A program made the translations under genes and the position numbers. From NCBI RefSeq assembly GCF_003253745.1, contig NZ_MZXV01000032.1, positions 248,001-312,000 of the forward strand: DNA of 64,000 nucleotides. Reading direction: 5' to 3'. Positions 34,718 through 39,752 of the stretch are shown here, in pieces (positions within the stretch are counted from its first letter, which is position 1; each line of letters starts with the position of its first letter). The notes under the pieces are model-generated. The model did not search any database and was not told the DNA's origin. It was given only the letters and a program-made list of their open reading frames with translations. The DNA is from Mesorhizobium kowhaii (GTDB lineage: Bacteria > Pseudomonadota > Alphaproteobacteria > Rhizobiales > Rhizobiaceae).

Positions 34718-34829
34718 CCGCAGAGCCAAGCGGGCTTATGTTTTCCAACGCTAAAGTTTGAGATGCCGCAGTCGGCGCTGCTCTGCTATGATTGGCGATC
34801 AGAAATCGTCAGGCCGGGGCGGAAACCTC

Positions 34830-36383
34830 GTGAGGCCGATCGAGACCCGATATGCCCGTAGCGGCGATGTGCGGATCGCCTATCAGGTGGTCGGGCAGGG
34901 ATCGCTCGACCTCGTCTTCGTGCCGGGCTTCATTTCCAATCTCGACCTGCACTGGGAAGACCAAGGCTACAGCCGGCTGCTGAAGCGGCTTTCGGCGTTC
35001 TCGCGGCTGATCCTGTTCGACAAGCGCGGCACGGGTCTGTCCGACCGTGTCGATGCGCACCACCTGCCCAGCCTTGAAACGCGCATGGACGATGTGCGTG
35101 CGGTGATGGACGCCGCCGGCAGCGGCCGCGCGGCACTGCTTGGCGCCTCGGAAGGCGCGCCGATGGCGATGCTGTTCGCCGCCACCTATCCGGAACGGAC
35201 GCGGGCGCTGGCGCTCTATGGCGGCTATGCGCATTTCCACAAATGGGTGATGTCGCCCGAACGCCTCGACGCCTTCATCGAGATGGCGGAGACGGCCTGG
35301 GGTACCGGCGCCACCCTGCCCCATTTCGCGCCGAGCCGGGTCGACGACGCGCATTTTAGCCAGTGGTGGGCACGTTTCGAACGATTATCGGCCAGCCCGA
35401 CGGCGGCAGCGGCACTGGCGCGCATGAACGCCGGGATCGACGTGCGCGGCGTGCTGGCCGCGATCAGCGCACCGACGCTGCTCATTCATCGCCATAACGA
35501 CGCACGGGTCGACCCGGACGCCAGCCGCTTCCTGGCCAGGAAGATTCCCAATTCACTACTGGTCGAGATTCCCGGACGCGACCACCCGATCTGGACCGGC
35601 GACGTCGACCGGGTGGCCGACCTGATCGAGGAATTCCTGACCGGCGAGCGTGCCGTGGCCGAGGTGGACCGCGTGCTGGCGGCACTCCTGGCGACACGCA
35701 TCTACGACACGGCGCGGATGGGCGATCGCATGTGGAGCGAACGCAGCCAGCGCTTCCAGGAAACCTGGCGGCTGCTTGTCGGTCGCCATGGCGGCCGCGC
35801 GGTGGGTACGCATGGCGAGATGATGATTTCGCGCTTCGATGGGCCTGCGCGCGCCATACGCTGCGCTGCGGCGCTGCGCGAGGCGGCAAAAGGCATTGGC
35901 GTGGCCAGCGCGCAGGGCGCGCATGTCGGCGAGATCGAACTGCGTGGGCCGCCGGTGGGGCTGACGGCGCGGGTGACGATGCAGCTTGCCGCGCACGCCA
36001 GCCGCGGCGACATAATCGCTTCGCGGCTGGTCGCCGACCTCGCAACCGGCTCGGGCCTGCATTTCACTGACGCCAGCCGGATCACGCTGGACGATCTGGA
36101 CGAGCCGCTGGCGCTGGTGCGGGCGATGTCTGAACAGCATCTGGAGCCCGATTGCCGCGCCAGGACCCGAACGGCCGAACCGGCCGTGCTGACGGCACGC
36201 GAAAGCGAAGTGGTGAGCCTGATTGCCGACGGCAAGAGCAATGCCGCGATTGCCGCCGAGCTCAGGCTGAGCGAACACACGGTCAAGCGTCACGTCGCCA
36301 ACATACTGCTCAAGCTGGATCTGCCGTCGCGAGCGGCGGCAGCGGCATTTTCCGCCAGGCATACTGGCCCGGACGGGCCATAG
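34830..36383 (+). CDS. Three-domain regulator: alpha/beta-hydrolase, degenerate class III cyclase domain, LuxR helix-turn-helix
   Basis: A 517-residue protein. Residues 1-270 are an alpha/beta-hydrolase: GQGSLDLVFVPGF, FDKRGTGLSD, nucleophile S107 in LLGASEGAPM, D224 in HRHNDARVDP and H252 in GRDHPIW. Residues about 285-435 resemble the nucleotidyl-cyclase half seen fused to such hydrolases (RFDGPARAIRCAAALREA, GAHVGEIELRGPPVGLTARV), but the metal-binding Asp motifs (FTDIVGS and GDG) are missing, so catalysis is unlikely. Residues 451-515 are a LuxR/GerE DNA-binding domain (LTARESEVVSLIADGKSNAAI, LSEHTVKRHVANILLKL). I chose the GTG at 34830; ATG 34788 is possible. Ligand and target genes are unknown. 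Confidence 0.85.
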   Translation: MRPIETRYARSGDVRIAYQVVGQGSLDLVFVPGFISNLDLHWEDQGYSRLLKRLSAFSRLILFDKRGTGLSDRVDAHHLPSLETRMDDVRAVMDAAGSGRAALLGASEGAPMAMLFAATYPERTRALALYGGYAHFHKWVMSPERLDAFIEMAETAWGTGATLPHFAPSRVDDAHFSQWWARFERLSASPTAAAALARMNAGIDVRGVLAAISAPTLLIHRHNDARVDPDASRFLARKIPNSLLVEIPGRDHPIWTGDVDRVADLIEEFLTGERAVAEVDRVLAALLATRIYDTARMGDRMWSERSQRFQETWRLLVGRHGGRAVGTHGEMMISRFDGPARAIRCAAALREAAKGIGVASAQGAHVGEIELRGPPVGLTARVTMQLAAHASRGDIIASRLVADLATGSGLHFTDASRITLDDLDEPLALVRAMSEQHLEPDCRARTRTAEPAVLTARESEVVSLIADGKSNAAIAAELRLSEHTVKRHVANILLKLDLPSRAAAAAFSARHTGPDGP

Positions 36384-36493
36384 CAGCCATGGCGCTTTCG
36401 GGCGAAGCGGCGCGAGACATGCAAGCGCTATCAATTCTCTCCATGCAGGCCGGGCGGATGTCGCCGGGAAAAGGCGCTGCGAGGGAGGATGAA

Positions 36494-36973
36494 ATGCTGA
36501 AGTCAAACCGGACACTCAAAGTGTTGGTGATAGCGGCGAGTGTTGGAGCGTTGTTCGCTATCGCTCCCGCAAAGGCCGAGGACGCGTCTGCGACGGCTGC
36601 CTACAAGGACATCCAGGCGACACTCGGCTCAGTACCAGACATGTTCAAGACTTTGCCGGATGTGGCCGTTGCCGGCGCCTGGGCCGAGATCAAGGGCGTG
36701 CAGCTCAACCCAAAGACCGCGCTCGACGGCAAGACCAAGGAACTGTTGGGGCTCGCCGTCGCGGCGCAGATCCCATGCCAATACTGCATCTATTTCCATA
36801 CCGAGGCGGCCAAGCTCAACGGCGCCAGCGACGAGGAGATCAAGGAGGCGGTGGCGATGGCCGCGATCGTGCGCCACTGGTCGACGATGCTCAACGGCAG
36901 CCAGATCGATCTCGCGACCTTCAAGAAGCAGACCGACGACGTGTTCGCGGCCGTCAAGGCGAAGTCGCAGTGA
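36494..36973 (+). CDS. Exported carboxymuconolactone decarboxylase/AhpD-like protein
   Basis: A 159-residue protein with a Sec signal peptide (LKVLVIAASVGALFAIAPAKA, shown in part; cleavage near residue 28) followed by a CMD/AhpD domain. The redox motif is C95-x-x-C98 with H102 in IPCQYCIYFHTEA, as in AhpD-type disulfide reductases. Most family members are cytoplasmic; export is notable. GGGAGGAT lies upstream of the ATG. A 10-bp stem-loop (36982-37006) follows the stop, and an NTF2-like gene starts 85 bp later on the same strand. Confidence 0.82.
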   Translation: MLKSNRTLKVLVIAASVGALFAIAPAKAEDASATAAYKDIQATLGSVPDMFKTLPDVAVAGAWAEIKGVQLNPKTALDGKTKELLGLAVAAQIPCQYCIYFHTEAAKLNGASDEEIKEAVAMAAIVRHWSTMLNGSQIDLATFKKQTDDVFAAVKAKSQ

Positions 36974-37058
36974 AGAAATCCCTGCCCGGCGATGAGCGCC
37001 GGGCAGCACTCATGATCATCAATCGCCCGAACGCGAAGACGGGCATATGGAGGATAAA

Positions 37059-37421
37059 ATGCTGACCAAGACACAGACCGTGGACGGCGCGGCGATCAAG
37101 AAGGCAATCGAAACCCGTGATGGAAAGATGCTGTCTAGCTTCTATGCCGACGACGCGCTGGTGCGGGTGATCGACCGCAACAACCCACCGAGCAAGCCGC
37201 GCGAAATCCGCGGGCGCGCAGCGATCGCCACCTTCTGGGACGACATCTGCAGCCGGGCGATGACCCACAAGGTCGACACCACGATCGCCGACGGCGACAG
37301 CTTGGCCTTCACTCAGGCCTGCGCCTATCCGGACGGGACGAAAGTGTTCGCCGCGGCGATGCTGGAGCTGAAGAACGGGCGGATCGCACGGCAGACCGTC
37401 GTGCAGGCCTGGGACGAGTGA
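37059..37421 (+). CDS. SnoaL/NTF2-like small protein
   Basis: A 120-residue cytoplasmic protein of the NTF2-like superfamily: AIKKAIETRDGKMLSSFYADDALVRV, IRGRAAIATFWDDIC and the C-terminal ELKNGRIARQTVVQAWDE. Such domains bind small hydrophobic molecules or act as isomerases/cyclases; no catalytic set is certain. The ATG at 37059 is preferred over that at 37047 because a GGAGGA sits five bases upstream of it. Eight bp separate it from the next gene, so they are probably cotranslated. Confidence 0.75.
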   Translation: MLTKTQTVDGAAIKKAIETRDGKMLSSFYADDALVRVIDRNNPPSKPREIRGRAAIATFWDDICSRAMTHKVDTTIADGDSLAFTQACAYPDGTKVFAAAMLELKNGRIARQTVVQAWDE

Positions 37422-37428
37422 GGCGGCC

Positions 37429-37743
37429 ATGTTCAGCGCCAGATGGCAGATCGACGCCGAGTTCGGGCACAAGCAGACCGTGCTCGAACTGCTGAAGAAA
37501 TGGGAACGCGAGATCGGCTCGCAGGTCGGTATCGCCGACCTCAACTTCCAGATCATGACCGGATCGATCGGCGCGCGGGAGGCGACGGTCGAATCGCATC
37601 ACGAGGTCGAAAGCCTGGCCCAGTTGGAGGCGTTCTTCGCCAAGATCGGCAAGATCGACGCCCACGCCAAATGGGGCAAGGAGATGGAGCCCTATGTCGT
37701 GTCGGGCACCAGCCTGTGGAACATCTATCGCATCGTGGAGTAG
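37429..37743 (+). CDS. Small hypothetical protein, possible dimeric alpha/beta-barrel fold
   Basis: A 104-residue protein I do not recognise. It begins MFSARWQIDAEFGHKQTVLELLKKW, followed by GSQVGIADLNFQIMTGSIGA, a central helix (LAQLEAFFAKIG) and an aromatic C-terminus (GTSLWNIYRIVE). The strand-helix-strand-strand-helix-strand pattern resembles ferredoxin-like dimeric barrels (NIPSNAP/ABM-type), which is inference. It follows the NTF2-like gene by 7 bp with a GAGGCGG site. Confidence 0.65.
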   Translation: MFSARWQIDAEFGHKQTVLELLKKWEREIGSQVGIADLNFQIMTGSIGAREATVESHHEVESLAQLEAFFAKIGKIDAHAKWGKEMEPYVVSGTSLWNIYRIVE

Positions 37744-37795: not shown

Positions 37796-38281
37796 CTACA
37801 TCAGGCCAAGCTGCTTGTAGAAGCCGAGCGCATCGTAATAGTCGCTCTGGGTGGCGATCTTGCCGTCCTTGATCGAGAACATCGAGGCGCCGGTGAAGGA
37901 GAACTTCTTGCCAGTAGCGGCGGTGCCGTCAGCCCAGGGGCCGGTATTGGTGCCGGAAAATTCCCATTCGAACGAGACACGGTCGCCCTCTACGACGGGC
38001 GCGCCCTTCATCGTCCACACCGCGTCGGGGACTGCTTTCAGGAAATTGTCGATGACTCCGGTTTTGGCGGCTTCCTTGCCCTTGACCGGTTTGCCGACAG
38101 AAGCGTCGTAGTAGGTAACGTCGTCGGCGAAGTAGCCGGCCGCCTTGGCCGAGTCATGGGCGTTCCAGGCGGCGACATAGGCTTCGACCACCGATTGCGC
38201 GGTGTCGGCAGCAAAGGACGGCGCCGCGACGAAGAGCGCGGCGGCGACAGCTGCGGATGTCAGAAATTGGCGGCGATGCAT
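37796..38281 (-). CDS. Tat-exported SnoaL/NTF2-like protein
   Basis: A 161-residue protein with a twin-arginine signal (MHRRQFLTSAAVAAALFVAA; cleavage after AAPSFAA) and an NTF2-like domain: VVEAYVAAWNAHDSAKAAGYFADDV, TYYDASVGKPVKG, FEWEFSGTNTG and SIKDGKIATQSDYYDA. This is the layout of SnoaL-like polyketide-cyclase or steroid-isomerase-fold proteins. Tat export implies folding before secretion. It lies upstream-separate from patD, whose stop is 44 bp from this start on the same strand. AGGGAGGAAAG precedes the ATG. Confidence 0.78.
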   Translation of the reverse strand: MHRRQFLTSAAVAAALFVAAPSFAADTAQSVVEAYVAAWNAHDSAKAAGYFADDVTYYDASVGKPVKGKEAAKTGVIDNFLKAVPDAVWTMKGAPVVEGDRVSFEWEFSGTNTGPWADGTAATGKKFSFTGASMFSIKDGKIATQSDYYDALGFYKQLGLM

Positions 38282-38324
38282 GGTTCTTTCCTCCCTTGTT
38301 GAATGCTTGCCTTCCTTCCGCGCG

Positions 38325-39752
38325 CTAGCCGTGAGCAACCATCACATGGCGCACGGCGGTGTAGTCTTCCAGCGCATAGAGCGACATGTCCTTGCCGTAG
38401 CCGGATTGCTTCAACCCGCCATGCGGCATCTCATTGGTCAGCATGAAATGGGTGTTGATCCAGGTGCAGCCATATTGCAGGCGGGCGGCCGTCGCCATGG
38501 CGCGCGAGACATCCTTGGTCCACACGGATGACGCCAGGCCATAGTCGCTGTCGTTGGCCCAGTTCACCGCTTCGTCGACCTCGGAAAAACGGGTGACCGA
38601 GACGACCGGGCCGAACACTTCGCGGCGCACGATCTCGTCTTCCTGCAACGCGCCGGCAACGACGGTCGGCTGGTAATAGAAGCCCGAGCCCTCGCCCGGC
38701 TTGCCGCCGGTGGTGATTTCGATGTGCTTCAATTCTGAGGCCCGCTCGACGAAGCTCGAGACGCGGTCGCGCTGGCGGCGGGAGATCAGCGGCCCGATCT
38801 CGTTTTCGGTGTCGTCGGGGCGATTGTATTTGATGGTCGAGACAGCCGATGAAAGGTCAGCGACGAGCTTGTCGTAGATCTTCTTGCCGGCATAGATGCG
38901 GCAGGCGGCGGTGCAGTCCTGCCCGGCATTGTAATAGCCGAAGGCGCGCAGGCCGTTCACCACCGCGCCTAGGTCGGCGTCGTCGAAGACGATGACCGGC
39001 GCCTTGCCGCCGAGTTCGAGATGCGTGCGCTTGACCGACTTGGCGGCTGCCTGCAGCACCTTCTTGCCGGTGGCGACATCGCCGGTGATCGAGATCATGT
39101 TGACCTTTGGATGGTTGATCAGCGTGTTGCCGACGCTGTCGCCGCGGCCGAGCACGACGTTGACGACGCCTTCCGGCAGGATTTCGGCAAGGATCTTGGC
39201 CAGCTTCAGCGCCGTCAGCGGCGTCTGTTCCGACGGCTTGAAGACCACGGTGTTGCCACCGGCGATCGCCGGCGCCAGCTTCCAGGCCATCATCATCAGC
39301 GGATAATTCCACGGCGCGATCGAAGCGACGATGCCGATGGCGTCGCGGCGCACCATCGAGGTGTGGCCGGGAATGTATTCGCCTGCGACCACGCCTGGCA
39401 TCGAGCGAACGGCGCCGGCAAAGAAGCGGTAGCAGTCGACGATCGCCGGGATCTCGTCGTTGAGCACCGCTTTGATCGGCTTGCCGCAGTTCAGTGCCTC
39501 GAGTGTCGCGAACTCCTTCGCCTCGGCCTCGATGCGGTCGGCGATCTTCAGGAGATAGCCGGAACGCTGCGCCGGCGTGGTGCGCGACCAGGTGACGAAC
39601 GCCTTTTCGGCCGCCAGCACCGCCGCCTCGATCTGCGCCTGGCTGGCTTCGGGCAGGTTGAGGATGGTCGCCCCGGTCTTTGGATTGAGGATCGGCTCCT
39701 CGGTTTCGGTGCCCTTCTCGAATTTCGAGCCGATCAGCATCTGGGTGTCCAT
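38325..39752 (-). CDS. patD: Gamma-aminobutyraldehyde dehydrogenase
   Basis: A 475-residue NAD(P)-aldehyde dehydrogenase. General base E246 ([18 protein letters not shown]) and nucleophile C280 ([13 protein letters not shown]) are intact. It resembles E. coli PatD/YdcW over its whole length: [44 protein letters not shown] and the end [18 protein letters not shown]. It oxidises 4-aminobutyraldehyde to GABA in putrescine breakdown; betaine aldehyde is an alternative. It is the last gene of a ydcSTUV-patD cluster with the same gene order as E. coli ydcSTUVW. Confidence 0.92.

Follow-up and report, generated by a model that had tools for sequence, protein, structure and literature searches.

The gene at 34830–36383 of the analysed DNA (a stretch of 64,000 nucleotides from Mesorhizobium kowhaii, here called the window) specifies what is probably a one-component activator, in which an alpha/beta hydrolase domain is the receptor, a pseudo-cyclase relays the signal and a LuxR-type domain acts on two adjacent dyads, O1 and O2, the target being a CMD-NTF2 operon that lies immediately downstream. 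We infer DNA binding, activation, dimerisation of the pseudo-cyclase, a ligand and the role of the operon; the arrangement of genes and domains is as follows, all features being on the forward strand (+).

34787–34792 (+): probable −10 box (TATGAT) in the promoter of the regulator gene itself, deduced from aligned loci
34830–36383 (+): regulator gene (alpha/beta hydrolase, pseudo-cyclase, LuxR), from the open reading frame, Pfam and NCBIfam
34842–35642 (+): alpha/beta hydrolase domain, residues 5–271, triad S107, D224 and H252, from Pfam and triad columns
35661–36131 (+): class III cyclase-homology domain, residues 278–434, from the LipJ model, the 1ybt match, the 1ybu fold and alignment columns
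36186–36347 (+): LuxR (GerE) DNA-binding domain, residues 453–506, from Pfam (GerE, 6.7e-17)
36365–36380 (+): predicted operator O1, TGGCCC-N4-GGGCCA, overlapping the last regulator codons, from a 17-locus alignment and profile tests
36390–36405 (+): predicted operator O2, TGGCGC-N4-GGGCGA, centred near −43, from the alignment and profile tests
36429–36434 (+): probable −10 box (TATCAA), 23 bp after O2, from its spacing in aligned loci
36494–36973 (+): AhpD-like CMD protein, secreted and bearing a CxxC motif, from Pfam (CMD 5.8e-15) and NCBIfam (ahpD_dom 1.2e-13)
37047–37421 (+): NTF2/SnoaL-like protein, the most constant neighbour (SnoaL_2 8.1e-10)
37429–37743 (+): small protein of no Pfam family, in 76 of 80 loci

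The regulator and its hydrolase domain

The open reading frame (517 aa from a GTG start, in a genome of 8.06 Mb) is a real gene. Its product is 93% identical to counterparts in named Mesorhizobium loci, a full-length copy occurs in 73 of the 99 genomes drawn from the genus (a hand count that includes the window's genome), and the gene is under purifying selection, the median dN/dS across 69 loci (short, cut or non-collinear ones being left out) amounting to 0.094 in the hydrolase and 0.174 in the cyclase-like domain. The GTG start is less certain, as an in-frame ATG at 34788 would extend the protein by 14 residues. A TGCTA-type hexamer 5' of the start is kept in many aligned loci, including those that have no ATG (by eye), and the orthologs thus suggest that the conserved bases at 34788 are a −10 box rather than a start codon.

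The protein has three domains. Abhydrolase_1 matches residues 28–252 (Pfam, E 3e-14), and a LuxR domain follows the cyclase-like region, as a preliminary description had claimed, GerE matching residues 453–506 at 61.3 bits, above the cut-off of 23.5. Pfam's cyclase model gave no match to the region in between, which is covered by the NCBIfam model of LipJ (NF058673, hydrolase plus cyclase; residues 5–418, 7.5e-80) with 268.8 bits, under the equivalog cut-off of 800 bits, and by the cyclase domain of Rv1900c (1ybt), which matches residues 279–416 at 1.7e-10 in a PDB search. Neither an autoinducer-binding nor a receiver domain was found in the regulator by Pfam at E up to 1, and the identities of an AHL-type regulator or a response regulator were dropped on these grounds. 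At the same limit no PAS family was detected in the regulator or in five co-scanned neighbours.

S107, D224 and H252, put forward earlier as a candidate hydrolase triad, all fall in the triad columns of an alpha/beta hydrolase alignment. The Mesorhizobium and Aminobacter type is represented by 91 distinct sequences, and the Ser-Asp-His triad is invariant in all of them. Ten distant LuxR-bearing orthologs (L045–L050, L136, L137, L164 from Shinella and L165 from Phyllobacterium) all possess the Asp and the His, while the catalytic Ser is replaced by Ala in three of them, on two branches (L046 with its sister L165, and L136), and by Phe in a LuxR-less sister protein, L051. With the Ser missing in three of ten distant orthologs, hydrolysis is not required in every ortholog, and where it is missing binding may carry the signal instead.

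These data bear on the idea that the regulator is a trigger enzyme, that is, a working esterase or lactonase that binds DNA and whose turnover either is the signal or removes an inducer. The invariance of the triad in the 91 sequences and the strong conservation of the hydrolase (dN/dS 0.094) would agree with it, but L046, L165 and L136, which have lost the Ser, still possess the same operon and the same upstream element, and we regard a trigger enzyme as a minor possibility.

The downstream operon and its candidate operator

The gene that follows the regulator codes for an AhpD-like CMD protein, whose secretion and CxxC motif were read from the sequence. Next is the NTF2 gene, for which the orthologs suggest a true start at 37059, and in most Mesorhizobium and Aminobacter loci the small protein comes after it. 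In a set of 80 loci (Mesorhizobium, Aminobacter and a few other or metagenomic records) the NTF2 gene comes after the regulator in 78 (in the remaining two the contig stops within the regulator gene) and CMD does so in 69. The association extends to all ten distant LuxR-bearing orthologs, where the NTF2 gene is downstream and on the same strand; between it and the regulator there is an intact CMD gene in five, a CMD fragment in one and no CMD match in four. A PNPOx-like protein, a cupin-like protein (below the cut-off) and a DoxX protein are other neighbours in the distant loci. By comparison, the plain hydrolase-cyclase relatives L154–L158 have neither CMD nor NTF2 beside them, and neither was found next to L153, the contig of which ends just past the gene.

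At the level of the family, NTF2 was found in 16 of 247 genomes: in 12 of the 12 with a LuxR-bearing regulator as against four of the 235 others. The searches for the regulator and for NTF2 each drew 247 family genomes, which we take as one draw, and weaker homologs of the regulator were possibly missed at the E-value limit used. In two of the four NTF2 genomes lacking the regulator, a divergent LysR gene adjoins the operon, which there consists of CMD, NTF2 and a small gene with a weak resemblance to ABM (below the cut-off); in the other two, neither LysR nor the regulator was matched beside NTF2. The CMD-NTF2 operon thus often lies beside a regulator gene, and one regulator appears to have been swapped for another.

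A functional link to formate dehydrogenase was also considered, given that fdsD occurs on the same strand in all of the 80 loci described above. It was set aside because neither fdsD nor fdhD was matched in the locus of any of the ten distant orthologs, in each of which NTF2 is present; L152 has a 28% match to fdsA only.

Three further observations concern the surroundings of these genes. Between CMD and NTF2, at 36982–37006, there is a perfect 10-bp stem with a 5-base loop that is not followed by a run of T. Its two 9-base arms both occur somewhere in 55 of the 80 related loci, and it is perhaps an RNA processing or stabilising hairpin. Just past the operon, the reverse strand (37796–38338, −) encodes another SnoaL-like protein, which matches a TAT signal weakly and was matched in only some of the related loci. 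Two Azospirillum plasmids (L166, L167) carry a 50% relative of NTF2 divergent to a gene for an SBP56-type selenium-binding protein.

The sequence between the regulator and the operon contains a conserved element, which was found in all 17 aligned loci, 3' of the regulator. It consists of O1, nine bases (eight in L152), a second dyad of the form TGG-type N4 GGGCGA (O2) and AGCG, with some variation in each part. Its conservation is independent of reading frame, O1 lying over the last regulator codons in Mesorhizobium and Aminobacter and elsewhere at or after the stop codon. When whole clades were held out from the profile, the true site still ranked first in seven of seven test loci, with low scores for L146 (−7.6) and L165 (8.2). 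The scores of a profile built from 12 representatives did not exceed 0.3 anywhere in 82 other loci (496 kb), among them the two LysR-linked loci, in which the element was not found, as against at least 39 at 15 ungapped sites, 12 of which had trained it. With a profile made from eight non-Mesorhizobium loci, the element was detected wherever the 3' end of the regulator is present (115 of 115 loci, a number that includes two of the training loci, L113 and L116 from Aminobacter, and may count some genomes twice) and in none of six others, of which two are contigs that stop within the gene and four have a truncated regulator.

A probable promoter follows at a nearly fixed distance. In 11 of 14 loci (a set from which the Mesorhizobium rows L012, L064 and L091 had been left out) O2 is followed at 22–23 bp by the hexamer [TC]ANNNT, a pattern picked after the alignment had been seen; the best of 2000 shuffles reached five. 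The window's own hexamer at 36429, TATCAA, departs from the pattern in its last base. We infer a transcription start near 36441, about seven bases past the hexamer, and relative to this start the centre of O2 would be near −43 and that of O1 near −68. LuxR-type proteins usually activate from a site centred near −43, so that direct activation is predicted from the lower dyad. The proposal that the protein had been converted to direct transcription control is thereby supported by an operator-like element linked to the regulator and by the conserved operon behind it.

Elsewhere in the genome the pattern is less informative. O2 alone, with up to two mismatches, occurs at 23 sites as against 11 for a reversed control pattern, and the sole site with zero mismatches is that in the window, so that a genome-wide regulon drawn from O2 is unconvincing. 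Autoregulation through an element of this type is likewise unsupported, as no similar site was evident upstream of the regulator in the aligned loci (by eye).

Four Mesorhizobium genomes retain only the start of the regulator gene (65, 84, 142 and 211 codons in L245, L244, L246 and L247, respectively). In three of these loci the deletion takes away the element, together with the whole or the greater part of CMD, and ends in or before NTF2, which is spared together with the next gene; at the fourth, neither CMD nor NTF2 was matched in the stretch fetched. The joint loss of regulator and element fits a regulator-operator pair, but it also follows from their adjacency. That three strains kept NTF2 without regulator or element means that persistence of the operon does not need the regulator, and in the truncated-regulator strains it may be driven from an upstream promoter.

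The same observations have to be weighed for a repressor, where unliganded dimers on O1 and O2 would block RNA polymerase at the −35 position until the hydrolase met its ligand. O2 does occupy the place of a −35 box, and survival of NTF2 in strains devoid of regulator and element would be expected if expression needed no regulator. However, the promoter was also deleted in those strains, no good −35 hexamer is seen by eye at the right spacing before the −10 box, which favours dependence on an activator, and the location of O2 is the one from which LuxR-type proteins usually activate. For these reasons we consider repression unlikely and retain direct activation as the preferred reading.

Changed cyclase residues and the probable origin of DNA-binding fusions

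The middle region is predicted to have a cyclase fold by both the domain search and structure modelling. Modelled alone (pLDDT 75.9, pTM 0.74; the full-length model is weak, with a pLDDT of 64.7), it has chain 1ybu_B of Rv1900c as its best fold match (Z 20.0, rmsd 2.7 Å, 156 residues), Foldseek places 1ybt_B at 8.2e-13, and among the structure matches listed every one is a cyclase chain, which has no bearing on other folds. Its metal-binding aspartates, described earlier as lost, are indeed replaced in the corresponding alignment columns, the first by Arg290 (TDI to TRI) and the second by Glu330 (GDG to GEM). Over 99 distinct orthologs the first column contains Arg in 98 and His in one, and the second Glu in 91, Asp in seven and Gln in one. 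The first metal ligand is thus lost throughout while the second position is usually acidic; since Glu330 is still acidic, that position is altered rather than erased. By its residues the domain would be a dead enzyme, yet one that is constrained and not simply decaying DNA. It is the fastest changing of the three domains, with 39% identity between the window's protein and eight distant orthologs, compared with 66% for the hydrolase and 68% for the LuxR domain.

A domain of this kind might still bind a nucleotide, and perhaps one metal, so coupling the switch to energy or second messengers. This would be compatible with the retained fold and the purifying selection on the domain, with an acidic residue at the second position in 13 of 14 LuxR-bearing rows of our homolog table and in 98 of the 99 distinct orthologs, and with an Arg of the former active site that is kept in six of the 14 rows. 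On the other hand, the first aspartate is gone in every ortholog, the lysine position is lost in all 14 rows, and no other part of the protein diverges as quickly, so that we find nucleotide binding quite doubtful.

Loss of the cyclase residues extends to other proteins in which this type of hydrolase is joined to a DNA-binding domain. A table of 77 homologs, counted by alignment column and without L144 (broken frame), comprises 14 proteins with LuxR, 35 with an N-terminal SARP/BTAD-type extension, three with an N-terminal winged helix and 25 that stand alone. The SARP and winged-helix labels denote N-terminal extensions that are in frame and longer than 75 residues; six of these 38 were checked by Pfam, five being clear and one (L011) below the BTAD cut-off, and in L187, L197 and L205 the SARP region is only partly present. 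L226 is counted as stand-alone because the annotated gene begins at the match, its open frame extending 89 codons further up. Both metal aspartates are kept in 24 of the 25 stand-alone proteins, the exception being L051, which has lost both. Among the 52 fused proteins, both are retained by one (the SARP protein L204) and one of the two by seven, neither is present in 27, and 17 have no cyclase domain.

The three fusion types differ in detail. All 14 LuxR rows have lost the first aspartate, the second position being Glu in eight, Asp in five and another residue in one. In the 35 SARP rows both aspartates are lost in 16, the first is kept in two, both are kept in one and the cyclase is absent from 16; in the three winged-helix rows both are lost in two and the cyclase is absent from one. 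The SARP rows come mostly from one genus, towards which the sample leans, and the cyclase-less SARP proteins may never have had a cyclase domain.

Several SARP proteins deserve mention for their own sake. L204 keeps both aspartate columns (with ADG for GDG), and L191 and L200 (SARP-hydrolase) keep the first only; judged by these residues, the three are possible intermediates or still active cyclases. Mesorhizobium genomes are rich in SARP/BTAD-hydrolase proteins with or without a changed cyclase (L161 and, in part, L186–L225), and one, L011, is encoded in the window's own genome (contig C1:994202-995005).

In a tree of the hydrolase domain, 17 LuxR-bearing rows lie on one side of a branch (91/96). 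Their neighbour (95/97) is L051, whose cyclase is dead and which carries no LuxR domain. Either the decay of the cyclase preceded the LuxR fusion or L051 has lost its LuxR domain. Beyond L051 the nearest outgroups are relatives with an intact cyclase, a placement with an SH-aLRT of 90 in a second tree, made without eleven near copies, and weak in the hydrolase-domain tree. In the second tree, the LuxR, SARP-with-cyclase and winged-helix groups each adjoin stand-alone relatives with an intact cyclase, for which at least three conversions to DNA-binding fusions are the simplest reading that the branching suggests. A contrast test that treated L204 and the cyclase-less proteins as dead found four independent pairs on starred branches, of which three to four agree and none is against (median p 0.125).

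We therefore put forward, while holding the chances for and against it to be even, a general scheme for this group of proteins. A LipJ-type hydrolase-cyclase receptor would have become a one-component transcription factor at least three times independently, on becoming joined to a LuxR domain, a SARP/BTAD domain or a winged helix of the OmpR type; each lineage would have given up second-messenger synthesis, through loss of the catalytic residues or of the whole cyclase, and where a dead cyclase is kept it would be the dimerising, signal-passing part.

Proposed mechanism, precedents and significance

For the regulator in the window, we envisage the following sequence of events. The hydrolase domain would be the receptor, which binds a small molecule (the preliminary description had suggested an ester or lactone) and, in Mesorhizobium, may also cleave it. 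The cyclase domain, without its catalytic aspartates, would have been retained as a module for dimerisation and for passing on the signal; relatives of the pseudo-cyclase function as dimers. In the dimer switched by the ligand, the LuxR domains would bind the tandem 16-bp dyads at 36365–36380 and 36390–36405, just 5' of the next gene, and would recruit RNA polymerase to a promoter in which the lower site, O2, takes the place of a −35 box. The CMD-NTF2 operon would be the target and plausibly protects against a reactive small molecule. That the element works instead as RNA, as a leader or attenuator unrelated to DNA binding by the regulator, is very improbable: a hairpin could be formed by O1, which is placed between the regulator and the downstream genes, but the −10-like hexamer at fixed spacing puts the element upstream of the RNA start, the would-be stem is broken on one side in several loci (by eye), no Rfam family matches, and in the loci analysed the element was found only with the regulator and not in the 82 others, LysR-linked operons included.

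The closest relative in composition is LipJ (Rv1900c; NF058673; 1ybt, 1ybu), which has the same core of hydrolase and cyclase fold over residues 5–418 of the regulator. The regulator differs from it in having replaced the catalytic aspartates and added a LuxR domain, and it scores 268.8 against the cut-off of 800. Mycobacterial cyclase-ATPase-LuxR proteins such as Rv0386 combine a cyclase-homology domain, an ATPase and a LuxR domain and are not known to contain a hydrolase; they resemble the regulator in placing a cyclase-homology domain in a LuxR-domain protein and differ from it in the ATPase and in the order of domains. The SARP- and winged-helix-hydrolase proteins L161, L162 and L206 share the hydrolase module, with the cyclase changed or missing, and have another DNA-binding domain, which is N-terminal and belongs to other families; they also occupy separate places in the tree.

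The nearest concept in the literature searched, as far as the accessible part of that report goes, is the RsbQ-PAS module, where a separate hydrolase signals via PAS to a phosphatase, a kinase or a diguanylate cyclase (PMC3183031). There, too, the input to signalling comes from an alpha/beta hydrolase and the outputs are of several types, according to the portion consulted (PMC3183031); unlike in that system, the hydrolase of the regulator forms one polypeptide with a pseudo-cyclase and a DNA-binding domain, and no PAS domain was found. For the operon, a parallel is offered by RclX, a member of the AhpD/CMD family that Pseudomonas aeruginosa needs against hypochlorous acid and that is induced by its neighbour RclR (PMC7950407, in the part available). 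In both cases an activator would turn on an adjacent gene of the AhpD/CMD family, which in RclX is peroxiredoxin-like and serves in oxidant stress. Since RclR is another type of regulator, and the portion of PMC7950407 consulted makes no mention of an NTF2 gene, RclR-RclX is a precedent by analogy only for what a CMD gene can do.

One paper records cyclase domains that adjoin either a hydrolase or a helix-turn-helix, mainly in two-domain proteins, and in the part consulted the three together are not described (PMC4886424). The preliminary description knew of no function described for the architecture, and in agreement with this we found none for the hydrolase-cyclase-LuxR arrangement in open-licence PMC papers; nor did those papers yield a report of the signal of LipJ-type hydrolases.

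The regulator represents a traceable case in which a second-messenger enzyme would have been turned into a direct gene switch, with close relatives that are still in the ancestral state. As the cyclase is changed in nearly all fused relatives that still have one, the prediction is that the output was changed and not the input. Since the predictions name a precise operator, promoter and target operon, a reporter screen in harmless soil bacteria would be a simple way of searching for the ligand of a LipJ-type hydrolase.
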